Source: a virus
Virus record (IMG/VR): IMGVR_UViG_3300002835_000127
Span: 1 to 64,000 of that record
DNA length: 64,000 nt
Direction: 5' to 3' (one strand)
Shown: one piece after another, positions 22,398 through 59,103 of the stretch
Layout of the letters: each line of letters starts with the position of its first letter
How positions within the stretch are numbered: position 1 is the stretch's first letter
Notes under the pieces: model-generated
What the model was told of the DNA's origin: nothing
Databases searched by the model: none
Seen by the model: the letters and a program-made list of their open reading frames with translations, nothing else
Made by a program: the position numbers and the translations under genes

Positions 22398-24143
22398 TTA
22401 CATTGTTCTTGGTACGGTCTGGCTGTTAGAATCAATAATAACAGACTTCTGGTTCTTAGCGGATTCTGTGTTAAATGTATTAGGAACCACATAAGGTATA
22501 TCAATATTCAAAGAACAAGGTGCGCCATCAACGATACCTTCTTTATAGGTCACGCCGTAACGGTCTGTCCATCCTCCTCTCATTATTACTAACTCATTTC
22601 TTCCTATGAGGATGTCACCGAAAGAATCTATTCCAACCTGAGTGTTAAGTGTTGCAGCGTTTAAATTAGTAGCACCCTGCATTGTTAACTGATTTGCTTC
22701 ATTCTTCTGGCTTGTAAAAAAGAAGTTAGCTGAGTCAACACCTGGTATAGATTCTAATATAGCGATAATATCAGATCTTGGTATTCTGTCTCTTCTCTTT
22801 AGATTGAGCATATAGCTTGCTATGGATCTACGGATAGTGTTCTTTATGGTAGTTGGATCGTTGCCTTCAAATATCGTAACAGAAGCGTTACCAACTATCC
22901 TAGTTATAGCTGGATCAATTATCTTTAACACGGTAGTAGCTATCATTTGTCCTGAATCCTCCAGAAGATTTATTATAGCTAATTTCATTTCAGGTGAAAG
23001 TATAAACTCCGCTGTGGGTATATCAAAGTAATCCTGGTTTGATTCTAGGTTAAGGGTTATATCTGGAACTAGATAAATGTAAACTATATTATCATCGTCC
23101 AAATATTCATCTTCAAAAGTAGAGTAAGCATGTATTTGCGAGAAAATATTTAATCTTGTCAAATATATTTCATACGATTGTGGATTTGCCAGAACGAACG
23201 CTCTACTAGTATAGGGTGCAACCAATCTTATAAGTTCAGTACTCTCGGGATCGCTACCAAACAAAGGATCAACCTCATTTCTGATATTAACACAATCATT
23301 AAGATTAAGCTGCTGTCCAAATAGATCGGTCCCTAAAGTTGTGAATCTATAAGTAATTGGCTTATCTGCTGTTGATCTAAGATTTCCTTGTCCTCCTAGT
23401 GTCTGTATGTACTCTATTCTTATTATAGATCCAGGAGGTGGAACCTTGCCAAAATTACCATTACCAAAATAGACATCAATTCCCTGTGAAATACCGGTTC
23501 TTACTATGAAAGTAGATCCCTGCAAAGGCATATCATAAAAAGAATCATATCTTTTCCACTTCTCCTCATTCACATAAACGTTCACATAATATTGATCAAT
23601 AAAAGCTCCCGATTTAGAAGGTATGTTAAAAGATTGAAGTGCAAGTCCAGTCCCCGTAACAGTCGCATTTTGAACTGTTCCCTGTGCTATCTTAACCCTT
23701 AGAGTGTTATTGGGCACAAGATTGAAGGTAACCGTCGGAGAGGGTAACATCATAGAATAGTACTTACCGTTCTGTATACATTGAACCTGTGTGTTGTTCG
23801 CTATTATAACTGATCCCCCACCAACTGGAGCAGTATTAAGATTCCATTGTATTGAGATCTCTCCCTGAGCTGTCGATGCTCTGCCTGGATCGTACCCAGA
23901 CAGTCTAGCTATACTCTTCACTGAGTAGTCCCGTGTTGCTTGATAAATGTTTAATTCGGTAATTGAGTCCTCTATGAAATAAAGGATCATCTGCGATAGG
24001 TTCTGTAATACAAAAAGTATTTGTCCCCAAGCTGAAGCAGCGGTAAATACGTTTCTAGACTGATTATATGTTCTCTGTAGAAAAACATAGGTGTCCGATA
24101 AGAGACCGCTGATTAGAATTCTATTCTTTTGATATATGTTCAT
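22398..24143 (-). CDS. Baseplate wedge protein, T4 gp6 / J-like
   Basis: A 581-residue protein. The N-terminal 100 residues are helical and end in the segment SVKSIARLSGYDPGRAS, typical of gp6/J baseplate proteins. The middle shows PGSIIRIEYIQTLGGQGN, the conserved Gly-rich turn of the family. The C-terminal part (INLLEDSGQMIATTVLKIID, then RRSIASYMLN) matches the helical baseplate J pattern. gp6 forms the ring connecting wedges in T4. It follows the gp25-like gene after five bases, the order seen in many contractile-tail clusters, which supports the call. Confidence 0.85.
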   Translation of the reverse strand: MNIYQKNRILISGLLSDTYVFLQRTYNQSRNVFTAASAWGQILFVLQNLSQMILYFIEDSITELNIYQATRDYSVKSIARLSGYDPGRASTAQGEISIQWNLNTAPVGGGSVIIANNTQVQCIQNGKYYSMMLPSPTVTFNLVPNNTLRVKIAQGTVQNATVTGTGLALQSFNIPSKSGAFIDQYYVNVYVNEEKWKRYDSFYDMPLQGSTFIVRTGISQGIDVYFGNGNFGKVPPPGSIIRIEYIQTLGGQGNLRSTADKPITYRFTTLGTDLFGQQLNLNDCVNIRNEVDPLFGSDPESTELIRLVAPYTSRAFVLANPQSYEIYLTRLNIFSQIHAYSTFEDEYLDDDNIVYIYLVPDITLNLESNQDYFDIPTAEFILSPEMKLAIINLLEDSGQMIATTVLKIIDPAITRIVGNASVTIFEGNDPTTIKNTIRRSIASYMLNLKRRDRIPRSDIIAILESIPGVDSANFFFTSQKNEANQLTMQGATNLNAATLNTQVGIDSFGDILIGRNELVIMRGGWTDRYGVTYKEGIVDGAPCSLNIDIPYVVPNTFNTESAKNQKSVIIDSNSQTVPRTM

Positions 24144-24148
24144 GCTTT

Positions 24149-24520
24149 TTAACTTAACTTTAAACTAACAACTGGACTTTGATCGCCTTGGTAAGGCAAA
24201 AGAAAATCTAGAAATGCTATATCCCTATTCGTACCCAAATAAAACTTCAAATCATATGTTCCACCGAGTACTCTAAAAAGCGGGCAATATGTTGACAGAT
24301 GCAGATCTAGCTCTTTTCTTATAGAGTCCTGAGATAGGTTTAATTCGAAAATTAAAGATTCCAAGCCAAGCCCAAATTTAGGATCACCTAAAACTTCACC
24401 CTTGTCTGTCAAGAGCATCATTTTAAGCTGGCCAACACAGATCTCTATTGGATCTGTGACCTCCAAGATGTAAGGTACGTAATTAGGATCTTGTGGATCT
24501 CTGTTGTAAATGTCTCTCAT
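24149..24520 (-). CDS. Baseplate wedge protein, T4 gp25-like
   Basis: A 123-residue protein, the usual length for gp25/GPW-like baseplate subunits. It contains the conserved core KMMLLTDKGEVLGDPKFGLG (about 33-52), then a helix with the ELDLHLSTY segment and a terminal beta hairpin (YDLKFYLG). In T4 and type VI secretion systems this subunit links the wedge to the first sheath ring. A GATATATA box 13 bases upstream of the ATG suggests that it heads the wedge operon (gp25-like, gp6-like, 179 aa, 1720 aa). Confidence 0.9.
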   Translation of the reverse strand: MRDIYNRDPQDPNYVPYILEVTDPIEICVGQLKMMLLTDKGEVLGDPKFGLGLESLIFELNLSQDSIRKELDLHLSTYCPLFRVLGGTYDLKFYLGTNRDIAFLDFLLPYQGDQSPVVSLKLS

Positions 24521-24594: not shown

Positions 24595-25401
24595 TTAATT
24601 CCACTGTAGGAAATAACTAGGGGTGTTCTCACCATTGATCATATCCATGACCTCCTGTAACTCTTCGGTTCCGGCACTAATGACGTCCGTTGCATTTACT
24701 TGAACCCCTCCAGGAAGGTTATAATTAAATGTTCCGAGCATTCTTCCTAAAGCTATCTTGGACTTAGCGATACAATATCTAACAAACAATTCGTCATCGA
24801 AAAGATACTCGTCACCTATTTTAACAAAACATCTCACATATAGATCGTATCCGCCATTCCCGCTCGAAAATCCTTGAGCTAACTGTGAATTAGAATTACT
24901 ATTTGAACCCCCTACTCCTGATCTATTTGGATCACGTCCTTGAATGGTAAGTCTCTTTGAGTTCTTATTCCATTTGAAAGCATAGGTAGCTAGTAGATAA
25001 GCCTTAGCCAAATCAAAATAGGAGTACATAACTGTTCTATAAACAAGATTATCACCAATAAAAGGAGATAGCAGCAGTTCGGAACCAAGGAGTTTAGAAT
25101 CACCAAAATCCTTATCTGGATTACCACTAACACCCGCTCCACCCACGTCTCTAACTTCATATACTGATACAATCGAATCAGGGAGTGTCAGTTGTCTAGT
25201 TGCCCTCCATTCAGGATGTGCAAAAACAGCTTTACCAATTATGAACATTCTATCCTCCACAGAATATTGATAGTTATCATAGAACCAATCCTTGGCTCTC
25301 TTTATAATCCTTCTAACCTCCTGCTCATTAAGGGAATAAGGAAGGCCGCAGCTGAAATTAAGCGCGTCTGTAATTTCTTGTATTAATTCTGTTTCGGTCA
25401 T
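24595..25401 (-). CDS. Putative virion neck/connector-type structural protein, 268 aa
   Basis: The protein starts MTETELIQEITDALNFSCGL. It has a helical N-terminus (EVRRIIKRAKDWFYDNYQYS), a beta-rich middle (LTLPDSIVSVYEVRDVG), a Ser/Asn/Gly-rich linker (GGSNSNSNSQ) and a C-terminal helical part (FVRYCIAKSKIALGRMLG). The fold style resembles small head-tail or tail-completion proteins. It lies directly upstream of the gp25-like gene. A GATAAATA sequence falls inside the 3' end of the preceding gene, 42 bases before this ATG. The neck/connector idea is low-confidence inference; the gene itself is solid. Confidence 0.6.
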   Translation of the reverse strand: MTETELIQEITDALNFSCGLPYSLNEQEVRRIIKRAKDWFYDNYQYSVEDRMFIIGKAVFAHPEWRATRQLTLPDSIVSVYEVRDVGGAGVSGNPDKDFGDSKLLGSELLLSPFIGDNLVYRTVMYSYFDLAKAYLLATYAFKWNKNSKRLTIQGRDPNRSGVGGSNSNSNSQLAQGFSSGNGGYDLYVRCFVKIGDEYLFDDELFVRYCIAKSKIALGRMLGTFNYNLPGGVQVNATDVISAGTEELQEVMDMINGENTPSYFLQWN

Positions 25402-25409
25402 GGTGAAGT

Positions 25410-26816
25410 TTAATAATTCATATCGCCAAATTTGGCTCCTTTATATTTATCGTTTAGGTCCTGAAGTCTTTTATCAGTTATGAATCTTTCATTTCTAACT
25501 TCGTTCCATCCCTTGACTTTTTTAGTGTCCTTACTCAGTTCAGCATACTCCCCAAGTATACCTGCTCTTAGCACTCCGCCAGCAATCTCGCAATTGATAG
25601 ATTTTTGTTCGCAGTTTATGTAGCAGTCCTTAAGCTTGTTGGTAGGTTCAACAGAGCATGCTTCTATTCTAGAATTAAGAACATCTGTACCTCTTACTAG
25701 GTAGCATTCATCTAGATTTGATTTGTTAATCTTAGAATCGTATATGTTGCACTTCTTTAAATAAGAACCCTTTATATCGCAATCGATCACATCGAAATCG
25801 TAGATCTCAAAAGAATTTCTAGACCTTGCACCTTTAAGTTGGCATCTCCCTGTGGATGTGTCATAATTAAAAAAGCAATCTGTTATACCGCCTTCTATAA
25901 CAAGATCAAATACCTTATCCCTGATTGCAGGGAAATATGTTCTTAGGTTACCGTCAAATCCTTTAAGATCTATAAATATCTTGAAGTCGGGATAATATCT
26001 AAGGAAAAGCTCAGGTTTAGAGAAGCATTTTACAACATTAGCATAATCCTTCATCATTGATTTTAGCTTATCTAGGTCCTCCTTACTATAGCCTCCCATT
26101 CTTTTGCTAACTATATCATAGAGATACAGAATGGTATATTCAACAACCTCTCTGATTGGCTCTATCTTTTTCTGATAATCCTTACCACCTAAATACCTGA
26201 ACTCCAAATATCCATCAGGAGCCTTTGTGAAATTCACACCATAGTACTTGTCACTAGGTGTCTTAAACATCATTGGGTCTATAGTGCTAATATTCTCCAA
26301 TATCATGTATCTACTTCTGGGTAAAACCCTTTTTATAGATTTAGCATAGACATTCTTTGTTCTGTTACCAAACTTAGAATAAATGAAATTCTCGTCAATA
26401 CCAAGGATGAACTTTAAATGATCCATCGTTTGTATCGCATTTTTAAGATTGGCCCTCTCGGGGTTAAAACTAACTGAGAATTGGAAAGCGCATTTATCAC
26501 TTGTCCATCCATTTTCGTCTATCCATTTTAGGACCTTGATCATAACAGGTATAGCCTCGTTATAACTCATTGGGCCAGTAACAAGTTCTAACATACTTAT
26601 ACCGCCCGAGTAATCCGGCTCTAACTTGAATCTCTCCCTGTTAACCGGTATATCCGAGTGGTATTTATTAGATACATCTACTTTTTTACCGAGAAGTTTC
26701 GAAAGAGCATCAGCAGCTCTTCCTTTGGTAACATTGGAAAAGAATTCAAATTCAAACCCAACATCAGACAAAGAAAGGGCCTGAGCTTTTTCAAAATGGT
26801 TTCTATTATCCTTCAT
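25410..26816 (-). CDS. Amidoligase-like (GCS-fold) protein with pentapeptide-like C-terminal domain
   Basis: A 468-residue protein. Residues 1-260 show the order of motifs of the Amidoligase_2 group of COOH-NH2 ligases: GFEFEFF (20-26) with the acidic E-x-E pair, LEPDYSGG (65-72), LELVTGP (76-82), FQFSVSFNPE (111-120) and NFTKAPDGYLEFRYLGG (195-211). Members use ATP to form amide or peptide bonds, often as protein or peptide modification. The C-terminal 120 residues contain repeated Cys/Asp/Asn/Ser pentads (DVIDCDIKGSYLKKCNIYDS), a probable right-handed beta-helix. It overlaps the S1-like gene by 11 bases, and is followed by virion genes. The substrate is unknown; a virion or host protein is possible. 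Confidence 0.65.
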   Translation of the reverse strand: MKDNRNHFEKAQALSLSDVGFEFEFFSNVTKGRAADALSKLLGKKVDVSNKYHSDIPVNRERFKLEPDYSGGISMLELVTGPMSYNEAIPVMIKVLKWIDENGWTSDKCAFQFSVSFNPERANLKNAIQTMDHLKFILGIDENFIYSKFGNRTKNVYAKSIKRVLPRSRYMILENISTIDPMMFKTPSDKYYGVNFTKAPDGYLEFRYLGGKDYQKKIEPIREVVEYTILYLYDIVSKRMGGYSKEDLDKLKSMMKDYANVVKCFSKPELFLRYYPDFKIFIDLKGFDGNLRTYFPAIRDKVFDLVIEGGITDCFFNYDTSTGRCQLKGARSRNSFEIYDFDVIDCDIKGSYLKKCNIYDSKINKSNLDECYLVRGTDVLNSRIEACSVEPTNKLKDCYINCEQKSINCEIAGGVLRAGILGEYAELSKDTKKVKGWNEVRNERFITDKRLQDLNDKYKGAKFGDMNY

Positions 26817-27975
26817 TTATGGATTTAGCAAATATTTTTCCTGTGTGAACGTCTATCTTCCATATTAATATTTCAATAGGATCACCAGTCTTAGCATTTC
26901 TATCGCCTTTACCCAAATGCTCGGAACTTATAAATGCCATTAGACCAATATCGCTTATCTCTATAAGCACTCCATTTTTTCTTTTGTGCTTAATGAGAGC
27001 TTGCATTGGCTCTATTGTGCCTTCCTCGACACGAGTCTCAATATCATAAAGGATTACGTTTCTTTCTAAGGGTCTATCTAGTGTTAGAGTCAATTTATTG
27101 TTCTCTTTAATCTCCTTCACATAGAATTCTATCTCGTCACCTGAACAAAGTTTGGACAATTCATCGTCACTCTCGAACTCGCTCTTATGGATCAAGCCAG
27201 TATAGATCTCCTCCCACTCAACAAAAACTCCAAATGGGCTTGTTCCAGTGATGGAGCCTTTATATTTCCTGGTTAGATCAAGCTCTTGAATCTTCTGCTC
27301 CATAATCTTGGAAATATACTTCTTGTAAGAAACAATGAAGGTATCTTTTGCCTCTATATAGCCTTCCATCATTACGTGTATATCCTTTCCAATATAAGAT
27401 TCGAAATCCTTGATCTTATTAGCTGCAGCCAAGGATCCAGGCATGAAACACTTAATACCACAAAGATCGACAATATATCCACCTTTATTTATGCTTTCAA
27501 CCCTTACTTTATAAGCTGTAGTTTCTTTTTTGATTTGATCGAAAAGTTCAGACTTTAGGGTCTTTATATAATGCTCAACAACAGATCCAAGATATCCCTT
27601 AGGAGTTTTTCTAACATGAGCTTCTATTCTACTACCTACTGTAAAATCAATACCCTCGATATTTAATTTTTCAGCATCCCTTCTTTCCTTCTTCAGGTCG
27701 ATATAAATTGTTTGTCCTGAGTCAGTCTGGGCAAAAGCCTCTTCTTCAGTTAAAGCAACAATTTTACAAGGGTACATCCTGCCATCAACTAGATCCTTAG
27801 CTAGATCATTCCAATCTAGTCCTTCAGAATGCTTAGCGTATGCCGCAGCGAGTTCTTCAGCATAATCAGCATGACAATAAATAGTCATCCCGTGATTATT
27901 CTTAATTTTTTTATTAGGCTTAAATCCGTTTGAATTTTCCCAACTGAATTCTTCATTTTCGAATTCTTGATACAT
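26806..27975 (-). CDS. Ribosomal protein S1-like, multiple S1 domains
   Basis: A 389-residue protein with about four S1 (OB-fold) RNA-binding domains. The clearest are near residues 150-215 (VRVESINKGGYIVDLCGIKC then FMPGSLA, the classic S1 signature) and 238-305 (KGSITGTSPFGVFVEW then TGLIHKSEF). A degenerate domain lies at about 64-98 and another at the C-terminus (ALIKHKRKNGVLIEISDIGL). Cellular S1 has up to six domains and delivers mRNA to the 30S subunit. I use the ATG at 27975; a TTG one codon upstream is also possible. A GATATATA box is 38 bases upstream. It probably steers ribosomes toward phage mRNA, an inference, or acts in RNA protection. Confidence 0.85.
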   Translation of the reverse strand: MYQEFENEEFSWENSNGFKPNKKIKNNHGMTIYCHADYAEELAAAYAKHSEGLDWNDLAKDLVDGRMYPCKIVALTEEEAFAQTDSGQTIYIDLKKERRDAEKLNIEGIDFTVGSRIEAHVRKTPKGYLGSVVEHYIKTLKSELFDQIKKETTAYKVRVESINKGGYIVDLCGIKCFMPGSLAAANKIKDFESYIGKDIHVMMEGYIEAKDTFIVSYKKYISKIMEQKIQELDLTRKYKGSITGTSPFGVFVEWEEIYTGLIHKSEFESDDELSKLCSGDEIEFYVKEIKENNKLTLTLDRPLERNVILYDIETRVEEGTIEPMQALIKHKRKNGVLIEISDIGLMAFISSEHLGKGDRNAKTGDPIEILIWKIDVHTGKIFAKSINEG

Positions 27976-28013
27976 CAATTTTAGTTTTAAATGGTTAATA
28001 TTAGTTTCTTATG

Positions 28014-28034: not shown

Positions 28035-29963
28035 TTAAAATACAAGCAAAACAAATCCAGGGGTCGGAACGGTTGCAGGTCCTGCCTGAGTCGATCCAGT
28101 ATATAAAAACTTCAAAGAAAGCAAATGTAATGCAAAAGAAACTGCGAGTTTAGTTGAAACCGCTTTAGAAACTAGATTTTGGCTCTTTGTTGCTTCTAGC
28201 AAGGCCTTCTGTGATTCTATAAGGGAAAGAAGAGCTTTAAATTCTTCAGATTCGATAGAATTGGAAAGCGAAGCTGCTTTTTCTACAAGCCCATTTGGAT
28301 CTAATTCAGGATTAAAGACGGGATTCAATCCTGCATTAAAAGACAGTCTCAATTTATTAGCAAGCGTAAACGGAAGACCTGGAAAAATTATAGTAAAAAG
28401 TCCAGGCGCTGGTATGCTAGCAGGAAGTACCGGCGGATTGGCTGCAAAGCAAGTAGGAACCAATCCCAATATAGTCCAATATAGGACCACACTAGATGAC
28501 ATAACTAGATAAGGATCGCTCTTAGACATAAGATCAGCTATCTTAGCATCCAATCCGAAATTTATCAACTTTTGTTGGAAGTCAGCGGACAGAGATCCTA
28601 GTACACCATTAATTGAATCTTTTGCGCTTTTTACAGCATCCTGCTCCTGTACAGCAGCGGACGGATAAATTGGCCCGCCAGGAGGAAATCTATATGACTC
28701 GTTTTGACTTTCGGCTGGGTAACCATTCTGTCCAAAAACTTTATTTATAGTGAATCTTTCCTGAGATCTACTAGATAAATCAGTTACCACTACGCTTAAA
28801 TCCTCAGATCCATTTAATGTAAACCTTATGTCAATTACCGGTGTACCAGCAAGGCCATATTGTATGTTATTAAGGGTAACGTCCCGTAATACAGAAACAT
28901 CGCTTCCCGCTTTTATTGCAATTTTAAATTGGACCTCCTTCTGAAAATCACCTACTGTAGTCACGGATCGAGAACTAACGGTAGGAAAAACAGAATTCTC
29001 TTCTATTATAGATATAAAATTTTCACCGTCCGAGGATATTCCTAGAGAAGAAGGAGTTGTCTTGGCTGAGTCGGAAAATGTCTCATCTGATGCATTTGCC
29101 AAACTCTTAGAAATATAAGGTGTTATTATCTCTATCCATTTCTGTAGTTCTGTAGAATAAAGACTTAGAAATATATTATCTATATCGTTTCTAACTGCCT
29201 GGGTTCCACTGTCTGATCCCGTGTTTGCTCTTACCGCTTGATCCAATCTATCCTTTCTATCGTCATTTAGAGTTTTTACAAGATAGCTATATAGGTCATT
29301 AAAGGTTAAAGCTCCAATACCCCTAGAATTTATCTCATCCTGAGCATCCTCTTTCGCATCCTCCCTATCGTATGTTAATATCGTATTGATACCGGGGAGA
29401 AATCCGTACCTAGCTATACCGCTCTTAGCTTTTTGTAATGTGTTACCAAATATAGAAACCTTCGTATTACCTATGTTATTAAAATCTACTTTAGCTTTAT
29501 AGTTAAATATCTTGGTTGATTCTTTGCCGTCCGTCTCATGTAGGAAAAAATTCCAAGTACCATTTTTTCTAATATCCTCAAGATCGTCCTGGGATACTAG
29601 ATTAAATATATCGTCTATGGATTGATCCTGAACCTGAGGCTGTTCTTTAAAAGCCTTTTGCTCCTCCTCGGAAGGTATGGGGCTGGACCCATCGAAATAT
29701 TTCTCGTCTCCCTGTAACTGTTTGAAAGTTTTCTGTGAGTTCTGTAGAAGAAAAAAGCCAAGTCCAAATCCAAGATCTAATATAGGCTTGAAGCTCTGTG
29801 CTAAATTACCATTTAAAGCATTTCCTGCGGGAATAGCCTTAGCACCTTTTATGGTATTAACATAATATTCAGATAGTTTTTTGCCGGTCTGAAAGGGACC
29901 GCTAGATTGGTTAGAAGATAAAAAGTTAGAAAAATCCGTTATAAATTGCTGCCAATTAGCCAT
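28035..29963 (-). CDS. Baseplate-region structural protein with hydrophobic segments, 642 aa
   Basis: The protein starts MANWQQFITDFSNFLSSNQS. It has two hydrophobic stretches (about 61-73, ILDLGFGLGFFLL; about 484-530, a Val/Leu/Pro-rich region containing VVLYWTILGLVPTCF) and a hydrophobic C-terminus. The middle has helical, charged sequence and a beta domain at about 330-410. It starts two bases after the gp5-like gene ends and is in the hub operon. Hydrophobic segments in a virion protein suggest membrane contact or burial in the baseplate core. The family is not recognised. Confidence 0.65.
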   Translation of the reverse strand: MANWQQFITDFSNFLSSNQSSGPFQTGKKLSEYYVNTIKGAKAIPAGNALNGNLAQSFKPILDLGFGLGFFLLQNSQKTFKQLQGDEKYFDGSSPIPSEEEQKAFKEQPQVQDQSIDDIFNLVSQDDLEDIRKNGTWNFFLHETDGKESTKIFNYKAKVDFNNIGNTKVSIFGNTLQKAKSGIARYGFLPGINTILTYDREDAKEDAQDEINSRGIGALTFNDLYSYLVKTLNDDRKDRLDQAVRANTGSDSGTQAVRNDIDNIFLSLYSTELQKWIEIITPYISKSLANASDETFSDSAKTTPSSLGISSDGENFISIIEENSVFPTVSSRSVTTVGDFQKEVQFKIAIKAGSDVSVLRDVTLNNIQYGLAGTPVIDIRFTLNGSEDLSVVVTDLSSRSQERFTINKVFGQNGYPAESQNESYRFPPGGPIYPSAAVQEQDAVKSAKDSINGVLGSLSADFQQKLINFGLDAKIADLMSKSDPYLVMSSSVVLYWTILGLVPTCFAANPPVLPASIPAPGLFTIIFPGLPFTLANKLRLSFNAGLNPVFNPELDPNGLVEKAASLSNSIESEEFKALLSLIESQKALLEATKSQNLVSKAVSTKLAVSFALHLLSLKFLYTGSTQAGPATVPTPGFVLLVF

Positions 29964-29965
29964 CC

Positions 29966-30646
29966 TTACCTAGTTTTAGTGATGAAACTCAATTGAGCTG
30001 TTGTCATCGGTGAAGCAGGAGGGGAGGATGGTCCTGCTGGTGTAGCATGTGTGTGCTGATTAAAGAAGCTTAAAAATGTATCACCAAGTATAACCTTTTC
30101 CAATGTACTAGTACCGCTACCTAGTTCTATATTTCCAGATTCTATGATAACTTTGCTATTCTCCATTCTAATCTCATCGTCACCCATTTTTACAACCACC
30201 CTAAGCTGACCACCATTCTGTGTGTCCAGTTGTATTTTTGCATTATCTAATTCAAAAACAACACCATCCTTATACGTATAGTACATATGCAAAGGACCTG
30301 GTTTTGCCTCGGAATCATATATTAAATAGTTTGCACCAGTGTAACAGTTATCCTCCTGCATCTTATCCAAAAGATCACTAGATATCTCCTTAATGTAGTG
30401 ATAGGTAATCTTATAGTAATTATTCTCCTCGAAGTGAACCGCTACAACAGCTCCCAATCTAGGTATAGTCAGGTTACCCCCTCCGCCACCTCCGCCAAAA
30501 GATAATCCAGCGATTTGTTCTGCCCAAGGGAGATCCTCTACTGCAACATCATCGAAAAATCCAAAAGCACGGATTTTTGCCCTAGCCTCTTTTAGAGGAT
30601 CATCTATGTCTACTATTATCCCCAGTAGGGTTCTTTCACTTGGCAT
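29966..30646 (-). CDS. Baseplate spike protein, gp5/gpV-like OB-fold, no lysozyme domain
   Basis: A 226-residue protein. Residues 1-90 carry the OB-fold pattern of T4 gp5 N-terminus and gpV: GIIVDIDDPLKEARAKIRAF (9-28), then EDLPWAEQI and PRLGAVVAVHFEENN. A Gly run (seven in a row at 51-57) sits in the loop. The C-terminal part is a beta-strand series that would form the spike helix, ending in HTHATPAGPSSPP as in gpV-type spikes. T4 gp5 carries a lysozyme domain between these parts; here it is absent. It lies between the 804-residue gene and the 642-residue gene with gaps of two bases. Confidence 0.85.
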   Translation of the reverse strand: MPSERTLLGIIVDIDDPLKEARAKIRAFGFFDDVAVEDLPWAEQIAGLSFGGGGGGGNLTIPRLGAVVAVHFEENNYYKITYHYIKEISSDLLDKMQEDNCYTGANYLIYDSEAKPGPLHMYYTYKDGVVFELDNAKIQLDTQNGGQLRVVVKMGDDEIRMENSKVIIESGNIELGSGTSTLEKVILGDTFLSFFNQHTHATPAGPSSPPASPMTTAQLSFITKTR

Positions 30647-30648
30647 AG

Positions 30649-33063
30649 TTACATTTCAAAATCAGACTCTGGTGAATTAAAGTCACCTAAGCTTATATTA
30701 TACTTATCAACAGGCTTCAAGTTTCCTAGAGTTAGATCCTTCTGTGATATAATTTTCTCCAAAACAAAATCCTCTACAGTTTTAGGATAAACCCTACCTA
30801 TCGCATTATCATTAGGTGCCTGTAAATTACCGATACCAGAATAAACATCACCAATTGAATTTGGTGAATTTGTCGCAGGTGGGACCGGAGGATAAACATC
30901 TCCAATTGAATTTGGTGCATTTGTCGCAGGTGGAACTGGTGGATAAACGTCATAGGATCCTAAATCACTATTAGCATTCGGAACATTAGGTGGATATACT
31001 TTTTCATTGATATCCGATTCTCTTGTCCCCAAGTTTGGTGGATAAACTTCCTCCCTAAAAGGAGGATATAGCCTATCTGGAACACCTAAATCAGCTCCCG
31101 GAACATCAGAATAAACATCATCTCTTAACGATGGACTATATAGACGTCCAGGAACACCCAAATCCTCACCAGGTACTCCATTATATGCATCACCCTCAGC
31201 TGGCGGATAGACTCTACCAGGACCACCTAAATCTTTTCCGGGTACATCAGGATAGAAGTCGCCATCCGAAGGTGGGTATACTCTATCAGGACCACCTAAA
31301 TCCTCGCCTGGTACTTTATCATAAACGTCGCTGTCCACTACGGGATAAACCCTATCAGGTACTCCTAAATCAGGTCCAGGAACGTTGTTGTATGAATCAG
31401 ATCCTCCAGTTGCATCTGGATAAACCCTATCTGGTACACCAAGATCTCTTCCTGGTACATTACGATAAACATCGCTTTGCCCGCCTACCTCAGTCGGATA
31501 CACCCTGCTAATTGTCTCGTTAGTGCTGACGCCAAGATCCTGTCCAGGAACCCTTCTGTAAACGTCACCTTCACCTGAGTTAGAGGGAGGACCATATACT
31601 CTATCGGGAGGTCCACCGAATCCAGTTGTCTGAGGGTTCGGTAAAGGTCGATCCAGATTTCTTAGACTAAGTTCTGAATTAGTAACCTGATCTAAGAAAT
31701 TTTGGGCAGAGTTATAACTCAGATCGCTAAGAATCTGTGATGGATTCAGGGAGTAAATATTACCCAATAGAGTCTGATCCAGTCCGGAAAGAGCTGGATT
31801 TAGGTACTCTGCAACACCCTCGTTTATAAAATCATCTACTGTGTTGCTCAGAAAGTTAGTTAAAAGCTCTCCTGCTATACCTAAAGCCCCACCTGTTGTT
31901 GTTGGATCCTGCATAACAGAACTCTTTGATTGATCCCACCCGTCCGATAGTACAAGAGGGTTTTGATCACTTCTAATATTCGGAAATTGATACTTGGTTC
32001 TCACCCTTCCGACATGTACTTTGAAATTATACCCGATAGGTGTAGCAGACTCAGTCCCAGCATTTATCGATGTAGGCACAGATGTGGAATCATCAAAATC
32101 AAACTCGCAATTACTGCACTCTATTATCAACATAGGTTTTATCCCCGATTGATCACTCTGATTTCTAAATAAACTAAGATCACCGTCAAGACCAGAGTTA
32201 TCTATAACATTACCGAGTAAGCCACCAAAAGCACTGGGGGTCTGAGAGGGATCAGATCCATAGGACTGATTAAAAGAATTAGCGGTATCAGCCGAATTTG
32301 TAGACCCGGGATTGTTGTTATTACCCACCAGGCTGGATAGGTTGCTTATCGTAGTTAAAGCTGCAGAAGATGCAATAAGTCTAGATGTTTTAAAGAAATT
32401 TCTTATCTCCGTAACAAATATGTACATCTTGAATCTTCTCAAGTTTCTAGGAACGGTTTCCCTCATGTAATCAGCATCGAATGTTGCTTGTTTATACATT
32501 TCTCCCAGAGCTGTCATTCTCTGATTTAAAGATTCGAGACAGTTAAATACTAGCGGTTTACCGGAGGTTCTTGATGGGTTAAAGCCGGTTTCTGCACCAC
32601 CGATGTATCCAGTTCTAGCCACTTTAACTAGAGCATCTAATCCATCTATAGATTGCAGGAACCAGGGATAATTGTCCAGTAGATCCTTAAGAGAAACTGA
32701 AAATTGATTCAACATATCAGCTCTTTTACCACCAGACCCGTTGAAGAATTGGCTTTCTCTTTGCCTTAGATAACCCTGTGCGGAGTAAAAGGACACATTC
32801 TGACTTCCTTTAACGGAGTAAGCTGGCTGCCCGAATGGATTTGAACTGAAAAATCCGCTATTACCGGATTGGAATGAATAATTATCCTTTCTAAAAAGAG
32901 GACTAGGCGGTTGGCCAAACTCGGCATCGATAGGAAGATTTCCGAAGTCTATCACAACCTTAAACCCAAGGTATGTAGGGTCTTCGAATTTGCCCTGTTC
33001 TGATAGCTTAAATCCTTTTAGAAATAAACTCCTGAGTTGATCTGTTGTTCCCGGCCAAGCCAT
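30649..33063 (-). CDS. Baseplate structural protein with C-terminal VYPP tandem repeats, 804 aa
   Basis: Residues 1-450 form a structural domain (FKVVIDFGNLP at 34; SLKDLLDNYPWFLQSIDGLD at 124-143; PRNLRRFKMYIFVTEIR at 205-221). Residues about 487-690 carry about eight imperfect copies of a 23-28 residue unit with consensus DVY..VPG.DLG.PDRVYPP. Two copies of a 17-residue unit (VYPPVPPATNxPNSIGD) follow to about 745. The tail is Pro/Asp/Tyr-rich and probably extended. A GATAAATA box lies 17 bases upstream of the ATG, so this gene leads the spike operon. The N-terminal family is shared in style with phage baseplate hub proteins, but I cannot name it. Confidence 0.7.
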   Translation of the reverse strand: MAWPGTTDQLRSLFLKGFKLSEQGKFEDPTYLGFKVVIDFGNLPIDAEFGQPPSPLFRKDNYSFQSGNSGFFSSNPFGQPAYSVKGSQNVSFYSAQGYLRQRESQFFNGSGGKRADMLNQFSVSLKDLLDNYPWFLQSIDGLDALVKVARTGYIGGAETGFNPSRTSGKPLVFNCLESLNQRMTALGEMYKQATFDADYMRETVPRNLRRFKMYIFVTEIRNFFKTSRLIASSAALTTISNLSSLVGNNNNPGSTNSADTANSFNQSYGSDPSQTPSAFGGLLGNVIDNSGLDGDLSLFRNQSDQSGIKPMLIIECSNCEFDFDDSTSVPTSINAGTESATPIGYNFKVHVGRVRTKYQFPNIRSDQNPLVLSDGWDQSKSSVMQDPTTTGGALGIAGELLTNFLSNTVDDFINEGVAEYLNPALSGLDQTLLGNIYSLNPSQILSDLSYNSAQNFLDQVTNSELSLRNLDRPLPNPQTTGFGGPPDRVYGPPSNSGEGDVYRRVPGQDLGVSTNETISRVYPTEVGGQSDVYRNVPGRDLGVPDRVYPDATGGSDSYNNVPGPDLGVPDRVYPVVDSDVYDKVPGEDLGGPDRVYPPSDGDFYPDVPGKDLGGPGRVYPPAEGDAYNGVPGEDLGVPGRLYSPSLRDDVYSDVPGADLGVPDRLYPPFREEVYPPNLGTRESDINEKVYPPNVPNANSDLGSYDVYPPVPPATNAPNSIGDVYPPVPPATNSPNSIGDVYSGIGNLQAPNDNAIGRVYPKTVEDFVLEKIISQKDLTLGNLKPVDKYNISLGDFNSPESDFEM
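30829..31605 (-). repeat. In-frame tandem repeats encoding DVY-VPG-DLG-PDRVYPP units
   Basis: The DNA encodes about eight copies of a 69-84 base unit followed by two 51-base units, all in frame in the 804-residue structural gene. Copies differ at the third codon base and at several residues, so they are old or selected repeats and not a recent expansion. The plus-strand open frame across them is a by-product of the repeat. Confidence 0.8.
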
Positions 33064-42522: not shown

Positions 42523-43932
42523 TTACATTTCAGAAAGAAAAAGATCTATTGCCTTCTGTCTATATGCTATTTTATCTTCCTTGATCTGTGGGTTCTTTAG
42601 AGGTATTTTCTTTCTCCCCACTATCTCGGGTGGCAGGATGGGAGAAAAAGTATCTTTTAGTATCTTCTTATCCTTTCTCCACTCGAGAGGCAAATGTAGT
42701 GCAAATCTCACTATGTCAAGATTTAAAAATGGGGTTCTTAGCTCCAGTGTATGAGCCATGCTCATCTTGTCCAGCCGTGGCAGGTGATAATAAGAAAGTT
42801 CTTCAAAAACATCAGACTTTTGAGAATCAAATTCGTGTATTCTTGAATATCCACCAAACAATTCATCAGAGCCGTCGCCACTTATAACTATTCTGTATCC
42901 GGTCTGTTCTTTGACAGCTTTAAACAAATGATACTGTGGTATAACAGAACCAAGATCGACCGGTCCTTCGTTCCATATTTTATAGATTTCCTTATTTAAG
43001 GATTCGTCCATATCGTATGTTAGCTTATTGATCTTGATATCAAGGTGTTTAGCTAGAAGGTCGGCATATTCAGTTTCACCATTCTCTATTGTGAACCAGT
43101 TTATTCTATCAATAGATTCAGATTTCATTAATGCTGCGATAATAGAAGAATCGAGTCCGCCTGATATTAATGCGGATATTGGGTAATTCTTACTAAGTAA
43201 TCTATTCTTAACACTTTCCACCATTTTATCCCATAGCCAGTCCATGTGCTCCTCGTATGATTTACCTCGAAGCTCGTAAATAGGGGAGTCAAATCCCTCC
43301 CAGTATTTTTGATAAACCTGTTGGAACATAGGAGATACTATGTTAAAAGAATAGATGTTATTAGGAAGGATTCTTTTTATTTCCTTATAAGGCGTTCTAT
43401 TGTCAGTGTTATAACCCCACTTTCTAACGCTAGAAATATAAGTATCGTCTATGGAATATCCCTGGCGATGCACACCTTTTATCTCCGAGGATATCTCACC
43501 TTCTTTATTAACATATAGACATTTTTTACCCAATGGGTCAGTAAAGCAAATAACATCTCCTGTTTTTGAATCATATATGACAATAGCCCAAAAACCATCC
43601 CATGTTTGCATGTGTGGAAGAAAGAGAGCTGAAAACATTTCAACACCACCAAAACTATAGGAGCTAAAAAGATTGCAAAGATATTCTATATCAGAGGAAT
43701 ATGCGCTAGTATCATAGTTGAAAATCTCGCCATTAAAAAGCATATAAATACCATCTGATATTTGTTTTGGCTGATACCAATTATCGCCTTCCACTGTTTG
43801 GATAGGTAATCTATGGTGGCATAGCGTAACACCTTCTAATTTTTTATCGGTTCTTTCAATTCCTCTATGAGAGATAGAATTTAATATCTCCTCCGTTGAG
43901 TTAAATTCAGTTGCTAGTATTATTCCGCACAT
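42523..43932 (-). CDS. asnB: Asparagine synthetase B (glutamine-hydrolysing)
   Basis: A 469-residue two-domain enzyme. Residues 1-200 are a class II glutamine amidotransferase: catalytic Cys2 right after Met1, SHRGIERTD (21-29) and NGEIFNY (67-73). Residues 220-469 are the synthetase domain with the PP-loop SGGLDSS (257-263) and SGDGSDELFGGY (351-362). It makes Asn from Asp, Gln and ATP in the cytoplasm. The required Met-Cys start fixes the ATG at 43932, so the 26-base overlap with the upstream kinase is real. At 469 residues it is somewhat shorter than typical AsnB. A related amide-forming substrate cannot be excluded. Confidence 0.9.
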   Translation of the reverse strand: MCGIILATEFNSTEEILNSISHRGIERTDKKLEGVTLCHHRLPIQTVEGDNWYQPKQISDGIYMLFNGEIFNYDTSAYSSDIEYLCNLFSSYSFGGVEMFSALFLPHMQTWDGFWAIVIYDSKTGDVICFTDPLGKKCLYVNKEGEISSEIKGVHRQGYSIDDTYISSVRKWGYNTDNRTPYKEIKRILPNNIYSFNIVSPMFQQVYQKYWEGFDSPIYELRGKSYEEHMDWLWDKMVESVKNRLLSKNYPISALISGGLDSSIIAALMKSESIDRINWFTIENGETEYADLLAKHLDIKINKLTYDMDESLNKEIYKIWNEGPVDLGSVIPQYHLFKAVKEQTGYRIVISGDGSDELFGGYSRIHEFDSQKSDVFEELSYYHLPRLDKMSMAHTLELRTPFLNLDIVRFALHLPLEWRKDKKILKDTFSPILPPEIVGRKKIPLKNPQIKEDKIAYRQKAIDLFLSEM

Positions 43933-50884: not shown

Positions 50885-52915
50885 TTATTTGTTTGTTTGA
50901 AATCTTGATTCTAGAGATCTAGCGATCATATCCATGTAAGCATTGCTGTAACCTGGATTTTGAGCTTGATTTCTTTCATCGGATGTGTTTTCACTCTCGT
51001 CTAATTTTTGAAGTCCAATAGGAGAAACGCCTAATTGACGGGTAGACCAGAAATTTCTGATTTGGTAAGGTGTATCTAGCTTATAGAAGTTAGACTGAGC
51101 AACAATAGATTGCTTGTATCCTTCGTTAAGTGATTCCCATACCTGAGCATACTCAGTTGGCATTTCGTCAATGAATTTAATTCCGGTGTTAAACACTTTC
51201 TCGTCATTCAAAGATTCGGTAAGTAGTGATGTCGCCTTTTGTGTTTCGGCAGGTGTATATGCAGTTTTAGCTGCTTCGTTGATTTCGGTTTTTTGGGTTT
51301 TAACCTTCTCAATTAAATTGTCAATTTTAGAACTTAAGTCATCGTAGCTTCCAGCAAAACCTGTAGTTTCAGCTGATGTTCTTGTTGTGAAGCTTATAGA
51401 CTCTTTAAGAGCTTGTGCTTGGTTCTTGTTACCAAACTCATCATTTAAAGATTCTGCGATATACTCAGAATAACTAATGTTGGTTTTAACCTTTTCATTA
51501 ATTTTTTCCGTTACGTCGATAGTCTTATTCAAGCTTTCTGCTAGATACTCGCTATATGTGATAGACTTGTTTAAATTCTCTCCTATATATTCAGAATAGC
51601 TAATGTTATTAGAAACATTTTCTGCTACGTATTCAGAATAAGAAATTCCCCTATCTAAATTCTCAGCTACATACTCAGCATATTGAATATTGTCGTCGAT
51701 GTTTTCTGCAAGGTATTCAGAATAGTCAATATTCTTTTCTACGCTTTCAGCTAGATATTCTGAATATTGAATGTTCTGATCAAGCTTTTCAGCAATATAT
51801 TTAGAATACTCAATAGAACTATCAACATTTTCAGCAATATATTCTGTATAAGAAATTCCTTTATCAACATTCTCAGCTAAATACTTAGAATAAGCAATAG
51901 ACTTATCAAGGTTTTCAGCTAAATACTTAGAATATGAAATAGAATTGTCAAGATTCTCAGCTAGATATTCACCATATTTAACAGAATTTTCTAAATTCTC
52001 TGCTATATAATCGGAATACTTTTCAAGTTTCTCAATTCTTCCCTCAAGGATTCTGCAATATTCAGAAGTGTTTCCTCCTTGAGACTCGTCAATATTCGAC
52101 TTTTGTTCCTTAATTGTATCCATAGCAATTTTCATCGAATCCATCTCGTTTTTCAAGAAAACGGAATACTGATTGAGCTCTTCTGCTGTTACAAATTCAT
52201 TATTCTTCTCCATAAGGGCTTTTTTGTTTTTTTCTTTATTGTTGATCAATTTATCGAATTCCTCGTTATTTTCAACTTTATATATCTTCACACTGGAATT
52301 ATTTTTAATACCGAAACTTTCATTGATACACTCTAGACCAGATGTGACTGAATATTTATCAGTAAAGTTCTTAATATCAGATTGGGTGAATCCTGCGCTT
52401 TCATAAACTCTCTCTAATTGAGCGTCTTGAAATCCAGGATCGGCAACAAGATCATATGTGAATATCTTCTTGATCTCCACCTTCTTATCCGGACCAACAT
52501 TACCAGCTGCTCTTGATGAAATAGAGATAGGAACTCCAGCATCTACTAATTTCTTAGCAATTTGTCCTGCTGGGGTGTCAAGTAATTTAACTTTTATCCT
52601 GATTGTCTTATTATCCTTATCGTAATTAAGATCCGTTATAATGTGAGAAATATTCTTTAGAGAGACGTCAAATTTTTCCGGATGATCTAATTCACCAACT
52701 AGTCTTTTTTGTGCAATCTTATCCTTCAAATAGCTAAGATGCGGAAGATAATCCCCCTCAGTATAGATTCTATTGTTGTTGTTCTCCTTTTGGAATACAG
52801 CAGCAATGCCTTCTAGAACATAGTCATCACTATTAGTCTTCTTGGATTCAAGAATAAAATCTTGCTTCTCCAGGATGAAGACATAATTTTCGTTTATTGT
52901 ATCAGAATATTTCAT
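50885..52915 (-). CDS. Prohead protease fused to repeat scaffold (gp21 + gp22 type)
   Basis: A 676-residue protein. Residues about 30-180 are a T4 gp21-like prohead protease: GELDHPEKF with His78 and PISISSRAAG with Ser133/Ser134, and the surrounding core (HIITDLNYDKDNKTIRIKVK, ADPGFQDA). Residues 300-495 are 14 tandem 14-residue helical repeats (see repeat entry), in the place of a scaffold. A possible self-cut is I21-L22-E23/S24. T4 makes the two functions from separate genes (21, 22). It lies 18 bases upstream of the capsid gene, as in T4. A GATATATA box is 26 bases upstream. Protease assignment is solid; scaffold function is inferred. Confidence 0.85.
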   Translation of the reverse strand: MKYSDTINENYVFILEKQDFILESKKTNSDDYVLEGIAAVFQKENNNNRIYTEGDYLPHLSYLKDKIAQKRLVGELDHPEKFDVSLKNISHIITDLNYDKDNKTIRIKVKLLDTPAGQIAKKLVDAGVPISISSRAAGNVGPDKKVEIKKIFTYDLVADPGFQDAQLERVYESAGFTQSDIKNFTDKYSVTSGLECINESFGIKNNSSVKIYKVENNEEFDKLINNKEKNKKALMEKNNEFVTAEELNQYSVFLKNEMDSMKIAMDTIKEQKSNIDESQGGNTSEYCRILEGRIEKLEKYSDYIAENLENSVKYGEYLAENLDNSISYSKYLAENLDKSIAYSKYLAENVDKGISYTEYIAENVDSSIEYSKYIAEKLDQNIQYSEYLAESVEKNIDYSEYLAENIDDNIQYAEYVAENLDRGISYSEYVAENVSNNISYSEYIGENLNKSITYSEYLAESLNKTIDVTEKINEKVKTNISYSEYIAESLNDEFGNKNQAQALKESISFTTRTSAETTGFAGSYDDLSSKIDNLIEKVKTQKTEINEAAKTAYTPAETQKATSLLTESLNDEKVFNTGIKFIDEMPTEYAQVWESLNEGYKQSIVAQSNFYKLDTPYQIRNFWSTRQLGVSPIGLQKLDESENTSDERNQAQNPGYSNAYMDMIARSLESRFQTNK
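51431..52018 (-). repeat. 14 tandem 14-residue repeats, consensus YSEYLAENLDKSIS
   Basis: In frame in the protease-scaffold gene: 14 units of 42 bases in a row. Every unit carries (L/I/V)-x-E at positions 5-7 (YLAE, YIAE, YVAE, once YIGE, once KINE). Unit length equals two helical heptads, so it should form a long amphipathic helix. Copies differ at many third codon bases, so the repeat is old and selected for protein sequence. Confidence 0.9.
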
Positions 52916-56417: not shown

Positions 56418-57119
56418 CTATACCGAAATCTTATTCATGATCAGCATTACTGTCTCGACGTCCCTCTCGCAATATTCCTTAATTTTATCAAAATTCTTAT
56501 CGACCCAGAAAACTCTAGAGACATCCGATCCCTTGATATCCTCTTTTGGAGATCTTACATCAAGGGAGCATGCTAATAGGTCTAGACCTAGATATTTTTG
56601 GCCAATCCAATTACCGAAGGAGAATATCTCTGCGGTGTCAAGAAAAGGCATCTCCCATGGTTTTTTATCCCAAACCTGTATATTCTGAGAAGGTGTAATA
56701 CCGTTATAAAGCATTCTCTTTCCTAGACAAGCTATATCAAATCCCTTAATGTTATGTCCACATAACTTCCACCCTTTTGAGTGGGCATTGTTAAGAATTT
56801 TGTTTGTTTTGTTGAGAATGTCAATCTCATCATCACCGAAGAAAGATGTTGTCCTTATCGTACCATCATCATTAAAGCTACCGAAGGAAACACACACAAT
56901 TCTTGAAAATTCAGCCTCCAGAGCAGATTTTTCAGCGAATATCTCACCGTCATTCATATCTGACAATTCTTTGTAAGAATTTCTATAGAAATTAGCTCTC
57001 TTACCCCATAGTTCACCCAATCTCGGATTTCTCTCGTTTAATGCTTCTAGACTTTCGAAACAAGACGCAGTTTCTACATCAAAATACAGAGCTTTTTCTT
57101 TTACTTCTTTATTGATCAT
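56418..57119 (-). CDS. DEDDy 3'-5' exonuclease, PolB-exonuclease-like
   Basis: A 233-residue protein with the three exonuclease motifs: YFDVETAS (Asp14, Glu16), CGHNIKGFDIACL (Asp128), and YCERDVETVM (Tyr216, Asp220), which gives the DEDDy form. Length and spacing match the stand-alone exonuclease domain related to family B polymerases. Its start overlaps the stop of the upstream UvdE-like gene (TAATG). It could proofread, trim ends in repair or degrade host DNA; which one is not set by the sequence. Confidence 0.85.
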   Translation of the reverse strand: MINKEVKEKALYFDVETASCFESLEALNERNPRLGELWGKRANFYRNSYKELSDMNDGEIFAEKSALEAEFSRIVCVSFGSFNDDGTIRTTSFFGDDEIDILNKTNKILNNAHSKGWKLCGHNIKGFDIACLGKRMLYNGITPSQNIQVWDKKPWEMPFLDTAEIFSFGNWIGQKYLGLDLLACSLDVRSPKEDIKGSDVSRVFWVDKNFDKIKEYCERDVETVMLIMNKISV

Positions 57120-58015
57120 TATTTTCTCTTATTAAATACAAATGGTGGTAGTGACTTAAAGTCCTTTAGATAATTAATGCAGCAAAATTCCTTCTCTGGT
57201 GAATCTATTATAACATCGACAGAAAGACCAAATGTTGGTATTCTTTTAGATAATCTTCCGGAAGGCTTAGAATTAACAGGGAATCCGTTTTCATCCTCGC
57301 TCTCAGACTCTGCATGAATCATAATTGGATTACTACCGAACTTCCATGTGGAGCAACTAAGAAACAAAGCCTCCCTTGTACTAAGACCCCCGTCATTGAA
57401 TAAATGATTAAGAAATCTAAAAGATACAGGTACATCCGATTTATAATAGCAACCGGATATGAGTTCCGTTACCGAAAAAAGGCTGGGCTTATCGTCATTA
57501 ACTACCGATATTCTCTTCTGGGTTTGCTTAGACATTAAATCAAACTTAACCGAAAATCTCTCTATAGTCTCCTTCCTGTTTCCATATGCACTTCCTATTC
57601 TAACTATTATCGATCTCCCCTTCTGGCCCAGCACATCCAATATGGACCCTAGGCTCTCCAAAAGTGTTATTGTTTTATCAGGAACCCCGTCTAGTTGACT
57701 AGCCAAAAAATATTCCTTCGGTATTATAAAGCAGGTCCTAAATTTATTAATATTAGAAATCTCGTGTATACTAGATAGTATCCCTGAAATTTTAGGATCC
57801 TCCTCGTCAAAACTAAAATCAACGAACAGTTCCGGATTATCAAATTCGCTTATATCCAGACATAATATGTTAAGTCCTAGATTTGAATTATAAACAATCG
57901 AATCCCTAACTAGCTTAAGAAAATCATAAACAGATTTTATTTTAACCTGCCCGTTTCCTTTTATTTTCTTCGGGAGACCGATGTACCCTAAATTAGACTT
58001 GTCTAAAGAAATCAT
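57119..58015 (-). CDS. UvdE/UVDE-like TIM-barrel protein, apparently missing metal ligands
   Basis: A 298-residue protein following the UVDE order: N-terminal LGYIGLP, then LGLNILCLDISEFDNPELF, then SIIVRIGSAYGNRKETIERF (135-154), VVNDDKPSLF (171-180), VPVSFRFLNHLF (195-206) and STWKFGSNPIMIHAESES (222-239). UVDE enzymes use several His/Glu/Asp metal ligands; the expected HxG, ENDD and DxxH positions read R-I-G, V-N-D-D and R-F-L-N here, while the late His234 is kept. This points to a degenerate or repurposed endonuclease. It precedes the DEDDy exonuclease, a plausible repair pair. The family call is moderate, the residue alignment is by eye. Confidence 0.6.
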   Translation of the reverse strand: MISLDKSNLGYIGLPKKIKGNGQVKIKSVYDFLKLVRDSIVYNSNLGLNILCLDISEFDNPELFVDFSFDEEDPKISGILSSIHEISNINKFRTCFIIPKEYFLASQLDGVPDKTITLLESLGSILDVLGQKGRSIIVRIGSAYGNRKETIERFSVKFDLMSKQTQKRISVVNDDKPSLFSVTELISGCYYKSDVPVSFRFLNHLFNDGGLSTREALFLSCSTWKFGSNPIMIHAESESEDENGFPVNSKPSGRLSKRIPTFGLSVDVIIDSPEKEFCCINYLKDFKSLPPFVFNKRK

Positions 58016-58551: not shown

Positions 58552-59103
58552 CTATATATCAGAACTTTGTTCTTTATCCTGATGCTTCAGGATATCTCTG
58601 AATTTAGACGCTAATTCATAATCCTCATTCTTAATAGCTTTCTGCATCAAGCTCTCTATTAAATAAGAGTCATTGGGTTCACCCTCGGGTTGCTCATCCT
58701 TTAATGAGTTAATTATAAGAGCTATTCGTTGAGGTGCATAGATAACCTCAAGTCTCGAGTTTACTATATTAGGATCTTCAATATTTTCCTCCTCCTGGTC
58801 ATCGATATCCTCGTCTATCTCATCCTCAACAGGTTCCCAGTCGCCATTGTCCCAGTTTATGATCCAAGGACCGTATGTTATGTCGGATATATCCCCGTCT
58901 ACTACCTGTTTTAGTATAGTCTTAAGCTCTCCCTTTATGTCATTCTTGGTAAGAGAATCGCTAAAAGGTTTTCTTTTAATGCCAGGTATAACATTGCTAC
59001 CCTCACCTATTCCCATTTTGAATGCCTTATAGACCTCAAAAATAGAATCCCAATCTAAACTGGATATAACTTTATCGATAAGTTTTGAATGCTCTTTCCT
59101 CAT
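58552..59103 (-). CDS. Unknown protein with C-terminal UVR-like motif, 183 aa
   Basis: The C-terminal segment LMQKAIKNEDYELASKFRDI (about 150-170) matches the UVR motif that UvrB and UvrC use to bind each other. The middle is very acidic (EDEIDEDIDDQEEENIED at about 93-110). N-terminus helical. Its stop codon forms part of a GATATATAG sequence. A link to the UvdE-like gene two genes downstream or to host UvrB/UvrC is possible; UVR motifs also occur in McsA-type proteins. Confidence 0.6.
   Translation of the reverse strand: MRKEHSKLIDKVISSLDWDSIFEVYKAFKMGIGEGSNVIPGIKRKPFSDSLTKNDIKGELKTILKQVVDGDISDITYGPWIINWDNGDWEPVEDEIDEDIDDQEEENIEDPNIVNSRLEVIYAPQRIALIINSLKDEQPEGEPNDSYLIESLMQKAIKNEDYELASKFRDILKHQDKEQSSDI

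Follow-up and report, generated by a model that had tools for sequence, protein, structure and literature searches.

What does an amidoligase-like enzyme do when it is joined to a pentapeptide-type beta-helix and encoded in a run of phage virion genes? The question arose from a 64,000-nucleotide stretch of viral DNA (the window), positions 1 to 64,000 of IMG/VR record IMGVR_UViG_3300002835_000127, a virus record of 75,451 bases. A minus-strand open reading frame (ORF), with its ATG at 26816 and its stop at 25410 (coordinates exact), encodes a 468-amino-acid (aa) protein. A preliminary description of this DNA had proposed an amidoligase-like N terminus and a pentapeptide-like C-terminal helix, encoded beside an S1-like gene and upstream of baseplate genes. 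The layout that we found is as follows.

25410..26816 (-): Amidoligase_2-pentapeptide fusion protein, 468 aa (Pfam, profile scans, alignment, predicted structure)
25917..26816 (-): catalytic part, residues 1-300 (AlphaFold model; VIA-align to maize glutamine synthetase 2d3a_A)
26745..26753 (-): E22-F-E24, the E-x-E metal motif (invariant in 79 relatives)
26571..26621 (-): EPDYSGG...ELVTGP, residues 66-82, with D68 and E77 invariant (alignment of 79)
26475..26483 (-): Q112-F-S114, in place of H-x-N (clade specific; alignment, tree, and cellular Amidoligase_2)
26196..26204 (-): E205-F-R207, the E-x-R motif (invariant in 79 relatives)
25554..25877 (-): pentapeptide-repeat beta-helix, residues 314-421 (profile matches, alignment, shuffles, model)
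25413..25553 (-): C-terminal tail, residues 422-468 (mostly low model confidence)

Fold, family, and beta-helix

The protein is a member of a phage-specific branch of Amidoligase_2 (GS/GCS-fold) enzymes that is permanently joined to a pentapeptide beta-helix. Residues 18 to 162 matched Amidoligase_2 (PF12224) with 27.3 bits against a Pfam cut-off of 22, which bears out the amidoligase-like N terminus. The same model matched 14 of 19 relatives at E ≤ 1 (best 5.6e-7), with scores below the cut-off in many distant relatives. An AlphaFold2 model of the 468-aa protein, built on a 73-sequence alignment (mean pLDDT 85.6, pTM 0.79), showed a mixed α/β enzyme domain, then a regular β-helix, and then a low-confidence tail. 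The enzyme domain (about residues 5 to 258) has a glutamine-synthetase/GCS fold in the model, as predicted, and not the different fold that had been named beforehand as counting against the assignment. Foldseek against the PDB placed glutamine synthetase (GS) and bifunctional GshAB on top (best E, 5.7e-5), with E. coli gamma-glutamylcysteine synthetase and pentapeptide proteins at lower ranks; all nine PDB chains at E ≤ 0.001 were GS or GshAB. VIA-align superposed 176 residues, within model residues 5 to 240, on maize glutamine synthetase 2d3a_A (Z 12.2, 3.3 Å). The VIA list spans mainly residues 7 to 336, and the helix was recognized through Foldseek, the model, and the sequence profile. Cellular GS and GCS2 sequences showed no significant similarity in a profile comparison, so residue-by-residue equivalence with GS is a matter of motif order only.

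When we searched viral models, the one full-length match was A0A6J5PQ40 from an uncultured Caudovirales phage in BFVD (TM 0.83, 26% identity), which is annotated "uncharacterized protein." The next matches were many phage "Amidoligase enzyme" proteins, including those of Atu_ph07 and crAss-like phages.

The C-terminal part of the window protein contains six consecutive pentads (CDIKG-SYLKK-CNIYD-SKINK-SNLDE-CYLVR, residues 346 to 375), and a pentad count this high arose in 8 of 2,000 shuffles of the region. The model has a beta-helix at residues 314 to 421, with pLDDT mostly above 90 and strands at five-residue spacing over most of residues 347 to 385. The family profile matched solved pentapeptide-repeat proteins in the PDB (best match, 2.2e-5), among them MfpA (7.2e-5), AlbG, and designed ones. 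Together, the pentads, the profile matches, and the regular modeled helix agree with the pentapeptide-like C terminus described before. The window protein gave no match to the Pfam pentapeptide models; Pentapeptide_4 matched 9 of 19 relatives (best E, 5.6e-6), with 22.2 bits against a cut-off of 38 in relative L036. The helix was found in every clade, with R417 in 77/78 and N317 in 78/78. MfpA, AlbG, and Qnr share the five-residue repeat register of the window helix, but these are free-standing gyrase-binding proteins, whereas the window helix is short and fused to an enzyme. With 14 acidic and 11 basic residues, the helix is near neutral in net charge, so a role as a DNA mimic is not suggested. 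The C-terminal tail carries the motif RF.TD.RL..LN...FxNMNY within the window's clade.

Active-site conservation and the Q-x-S clade

Across 79 diverse sequences, E22, E24, D68, E77, R152, Y157, N195, E205, and R207 were invariant, and the T-G-P of ELVTGP was 92 to 99% conserved. These nine catalytic-type residues showed no variation either in the neck-gene search described below, where 77 copies were aligned (the window's and 76 others). Both sites of the preliminary description, E-x-E (22/24) and E-L-V-T-G-P (77 to 82), are present in the 468-aa protein and not lost in the relatives. By motif order, we take the E-x-E, E..E, and E-x-R motifs to fit the metal and nucleotide residues of GS. The likely metal and nucleotide residues are invariant in relatives down to about 28% identity, with the exception of an H112Q change. 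Because the catalytic-type residues are invariant in the 79 diverse sequences, we predict that the window-type amidoligase is very probably catalytically active.

Position 112 is a likely metal ligand that has changed from H to Q in the window's clade. At positions 112/114, 52 of the 79 sequences have H-x-N and 27 have Q-x-S. The Q-x-S sequences, the window's among them, group as a single, fully supported clade on a long branch, and the remainder of their active site is the same. Since the Amidoligase_2 proteins of cells carry H-x-N at the equivalent positions, Q-x-S is probably a derived state that replaced H-x-N. This natural switch is a ready-made test of metal use by GS-fold ligases.

Distribution and comparison with known amidoligases

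The fusion occurs in hundreds of uncultured phages of very large size, the largest known among them. Profile scans of IMG/VR in two overlapping sets recovered 463 and at least 491 relatives. In an annotated phage collection, we found the fusion only in LR756500-LR756504 and LR745206 (462 to 735 kb). Among these LR records are the largest complete genomes reported by Al-Shayeb et al. (634 to 735 kb); the text of their paper makes no mention of an amidoligase (PMC7162821). Searches of the collection from three clades returned the six LR records and, weakly, Atu_ph07 alone, with no cultured phage carrying the fusion. A scan of genome contigs for cellular homologues gave three matches, all in metagenome-assembled bins, and no cellular parent of the fusion; the three (one on a 254-kb contig) are probably phage contigs. 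Our literature searches for an amidoligase plus pentapeptide repeat, or for a virion peptide ligase, found nothing relevant. We conclude that the architecture is real and well conserved and that its enzyme family is known; we found no earlier description of it.

The enzyme part resembles the cellular Amidoligase_2 proteins of Bacteroidota, which have a similar motif order (G-x-E-x-E, ELDAS/EPDYSGG-like, E-I-V-T-P-P/ELVTGP, and G-L-H-x-N). Profile comparison of the phage family with cellular Amidoligase_2 gave an E value of 2.5e-6, mainly over the N-terminal 54 columns. Unlike the phage fusion, the Bacteroidota proteins are about 330 aa long, lack the pentapeptide helix (0/12 homologues examined), and keep H-x-N. 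Agrobacterium phage Atu_ph07 gp196 ("Amidoligase enzyme" in BFVD) matched Amidoligase_2 with 30.2 bits, is a structural match, and is encoded near a portal gene, but it has 24% identity over 44% of the query and no pentapeptide match.

The phage amidoligases that we found in the literature are discussed as host-cell-wall or metabolite enzymes. Those of phiEco32, LUZ24/PaP3, UFV-P2, tf, RIO-1/PSA-HP1, and OM43 phages lie in early or metabolic cassettes with GATase, ATP-grasp, COOH-NH2_lig, or gamma-glutamyl cyclotransferase partners, and the proposed cassette role is peptidoglycan alteration or metabolite synthesis (PMC3890496, PMC5498523, PMC10580990). They share with the window a phage-encoded Amidoligase_2 enzyme; in contrast, the window's enzyme is encoded in a late neck/tail run, has no adjacent cassette, and is fused to a beta-helix. 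Beside the window-type amidoligase gene we saw no GATase or ATP-grasp partner and no small-molecule pathway partner, and GATase_6 was found neither there nor anywhere in five large LR records (W01-W05). A search with PF14395 (COOH-NH2_lig) gave no match, and the control genomes gave none either.

Among the head genes of the window, at 42523-43932 (-) and about 16 kb from the amidoligase gene, is an AsnB-type asparagine synthetase gene (PF00733, 1.5e-42) with Cys2 intact. Of the records searched, all five from the window's clade gave a GATase_6 match, and no other phage did. We rejected this gene as a general, obligatory GATase partner because it is absent from W01-W05 and from the marine records searched.

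Gene neighborhood and candidate targets

The neighbors of the fusion gene in the window are as follows.

22398..24143 (-): baseplate wedge gp6-like (PHROG 219, 1.9e-34)
24149..24520 (-): baseplate wedge gp25-like (weak match, below Pfam cut-off)
24595..25401 (-): neck protein, T4 gp13-like, 268 aa (Foldseek, VIA, PHROG)
26806..27978 (-): ribosomal S1-like protein, 390 aa (Pfam S1, 3.9e-15; bS1 of 8wi7, E 5.1e-13)
29966..30646 (-): baseplate hub/spike OB-domain protein (PHROG 430, 5.8e-13)

The window's clade and marine relatives at about 35% identity share one gene order: the hub/spike OB protein comes first, followed by a variable protein, the S1-like protein, the amidoligase, and then the neck, gp25-like, and gp6-like proteins. 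The placement upstream of baseplate genes was right in that the two wedge genes follow, but the gene directly downstream encodes a T4 gp13-like neck protein, whose start is 8 nucleotides (nt) past the amidoligase stop. This neck protein had no Pfam match. Its model (pLDDT 76) matched the T4 portal-neck-tail structure 9mkb (Foldseek E 3.1e-9, prob 1.00) and 9lu4_A (VIA Z 14.2, 111 residues, 3.1 Å), the gp13 match covering the core only, and the protein matched the PHROG "head-tail adaptor Ad2" (1.1e-5). The S1-like gene does adjoin the amidoligase gene, as noted before. It lies upstream, overlapping the amidoligase start by 11 nt in the window; the overlap is 8 to 11 nt in most members of the window's clade, and most marine relatives have the gene 16 to 94 nt upstream. 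Its product has several S1 repeats resembling bS1 and, from the Pfam S1 and bS1 matches, is identified as a relative of ribosomal bS1.

We also scanned with the neck protein independently of the amidoligase query and took the 80 best-matching loci. The amidoligase gene adjoined the neck gene in 80/80 of these, with usual gaps of -14 to 18 nt, and S1 was kept in 72/72 of those with enough sequence; because these 80 loci all belong to a single part of the tree, they show a fixed gene set there and not everywhere. The neck-gene family was inside the fetched flanks of 45/78 representatives, including deep branches L035, L039, L137, L149, L151, L155, L158, and L160. In a midpoint-rooted tree, the S1-adjacent half has 40 members, with S1 detected in 37. 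In the other half, S1 lay beside the amidoligase gene in 0/38 representatives and the neck gene was within reach in 7, most others being near other tail genes. The 634- to 642-kb and 735-kb phages keep the S1-like gene at a distance, about 49 kb in W04 and more than 200 kb in W01-W03. With half of the tree lacking adjacency, the idea of S1 as an obligatory partner is weakened.

We favor, though tentatively, a reading in which the fusion is a carboxylate-amine ligase, expressed late, whose β-helix would dock on a protein of the neck/tail run, which the enzyme would then modify. The amide-bond chemistry, taken from the family, is well supported; the substrate we infer. In the chemistry of the family, ATP and Mg2+ would be used to phosphorylate a carboxylate, and the acyl phosphate would be joined to an amine to give an amide. 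Architecture and context suggest that the beta-helix could serve as a dock that recruits a protein, to which the enzyme would add an amino acid, a short peptide, or an amine during assembly. It would act late in infection, on a phage or a host protein; the most likely target would be a protein of the neck/tail run, where no neighbor is more constant than the gp13-like neck protein. The family match, the fold, the invariant site, the helix in all clades, and the 80/80 best neck loci support this reading. Against it count the H-to-Q change at the likely metal ligand in the window's clade, the S1 nonadjacency in one half of the tree with the neck gene near in only 7/38 there, and the fact that phage genes are often ordered by the timing of their expression and not by partnership. 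It is possible, but doubtful, that megaphages have in this protein a dedicated, conserved enzyme that places an amide-linked amino acid, peptide, or amine on a neck/tail (or S1-like) protein. This would be one step toward infectious particles, with the beta-helix as substrate dock.

The earlier proposal that virion or host translation proteins are modified is compatible with the gene context. In its translation half, a phage S1-like or host ribosomal protein could be the target, much as RimK extends S6 with glutamates, so that ribosomes would be tuned to late phage mRNAs. The overlapping or closely upstream S1-like gene, a genuine bS1 relative that is kept in all 72 informative loci among the best 80, fits this idea, as does the adjoining of two apparently nonstructural genes in a structural run. 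We nevertheless consider it unlikely, given that S1 adjacency is limited to one half of the tree, that the largest phages keep both genes far apart, and that we saw no conserved S1 tail suggestive of a modification site. Slightly less likely still is an action on a small molecule or cell-wall peptide, made or edited by the enzyme much as by the cassette of phiEco32, LUZ24, and RIO-1, whose presumed effect is an altered host peptidoglycan and a block to superinfection. The enzyme family is the same, such a role has been proposed in print for phage amidoligases (PMC5498523, PMC10580990), and an AsnB-type gene lies about 16 kb off. However, only the window's clade has the AsnB-like gene, no GATase_6 match turned up in W01-W05 (four of these, W01-W04, being the largest complete phages), the amidoligase gene sits in a late structural run and in no early cassette, and the beta-helix suggests a protein partner. 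A mainly structural or scaffolding neck/tail protein that keeps the ligase fold for its shape would fit the fixed position among virion genes, the frequency of beta-helices in virions, and the H-to-Q change, but strict invariance of some ten catalytic-type residues across hundreds of phages is unexpected for a scaffold and makes this improbable.

A β-helix-fused branch with a conserved site, present in hundreds of huge phages (one of 735 kb among them) and next to a gp13-like gene, points to a protein modification that has not been described before and that would be linked either with the assembly of virions or with translation that depends on S1. Three coexpressed genes would suffice to test the two hypotheses. 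In the T4 neck, the host RNA-binding protein Hfq forms a second genome gate with gp13 and gp14 (PMC12270204). In the window, an S1-like RNA-binding protein encoded near a gp13-like gene offers a possible link, which we regard as a lead and not as evidence.

Several other genes of the window deserve mention. Between the hub gene and the S1-like gene, the product of 28035-29963 (-) matches an Hsp70 substrate-binding domain at residues 300 to 411, without the ATPase domain (Pfam, 1.4e-6; yeast Ssb1, 2e-7); this match is absent in six relatives from other lineages. Beside the spike gene, 30649-33063 (-) encodes C-terminal Pro/Gly-rich repeats (DVYxxVPGxDLGxPDRVYPP) at about 30841-31511, in tandem DNA repeats of 51 and 69 nt, and its relatives vary in length. 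The 676-aa product of 50885-52915 (-) has a prohead-protease-like domain (Peptidase_S77) at its N terminus, possibly fused to a scaffold. At 57119-58015 and 58552-59103 (-), a UvdE-type UV endonuclease is encoded close to a small UvrB/UvrC-motif protein.
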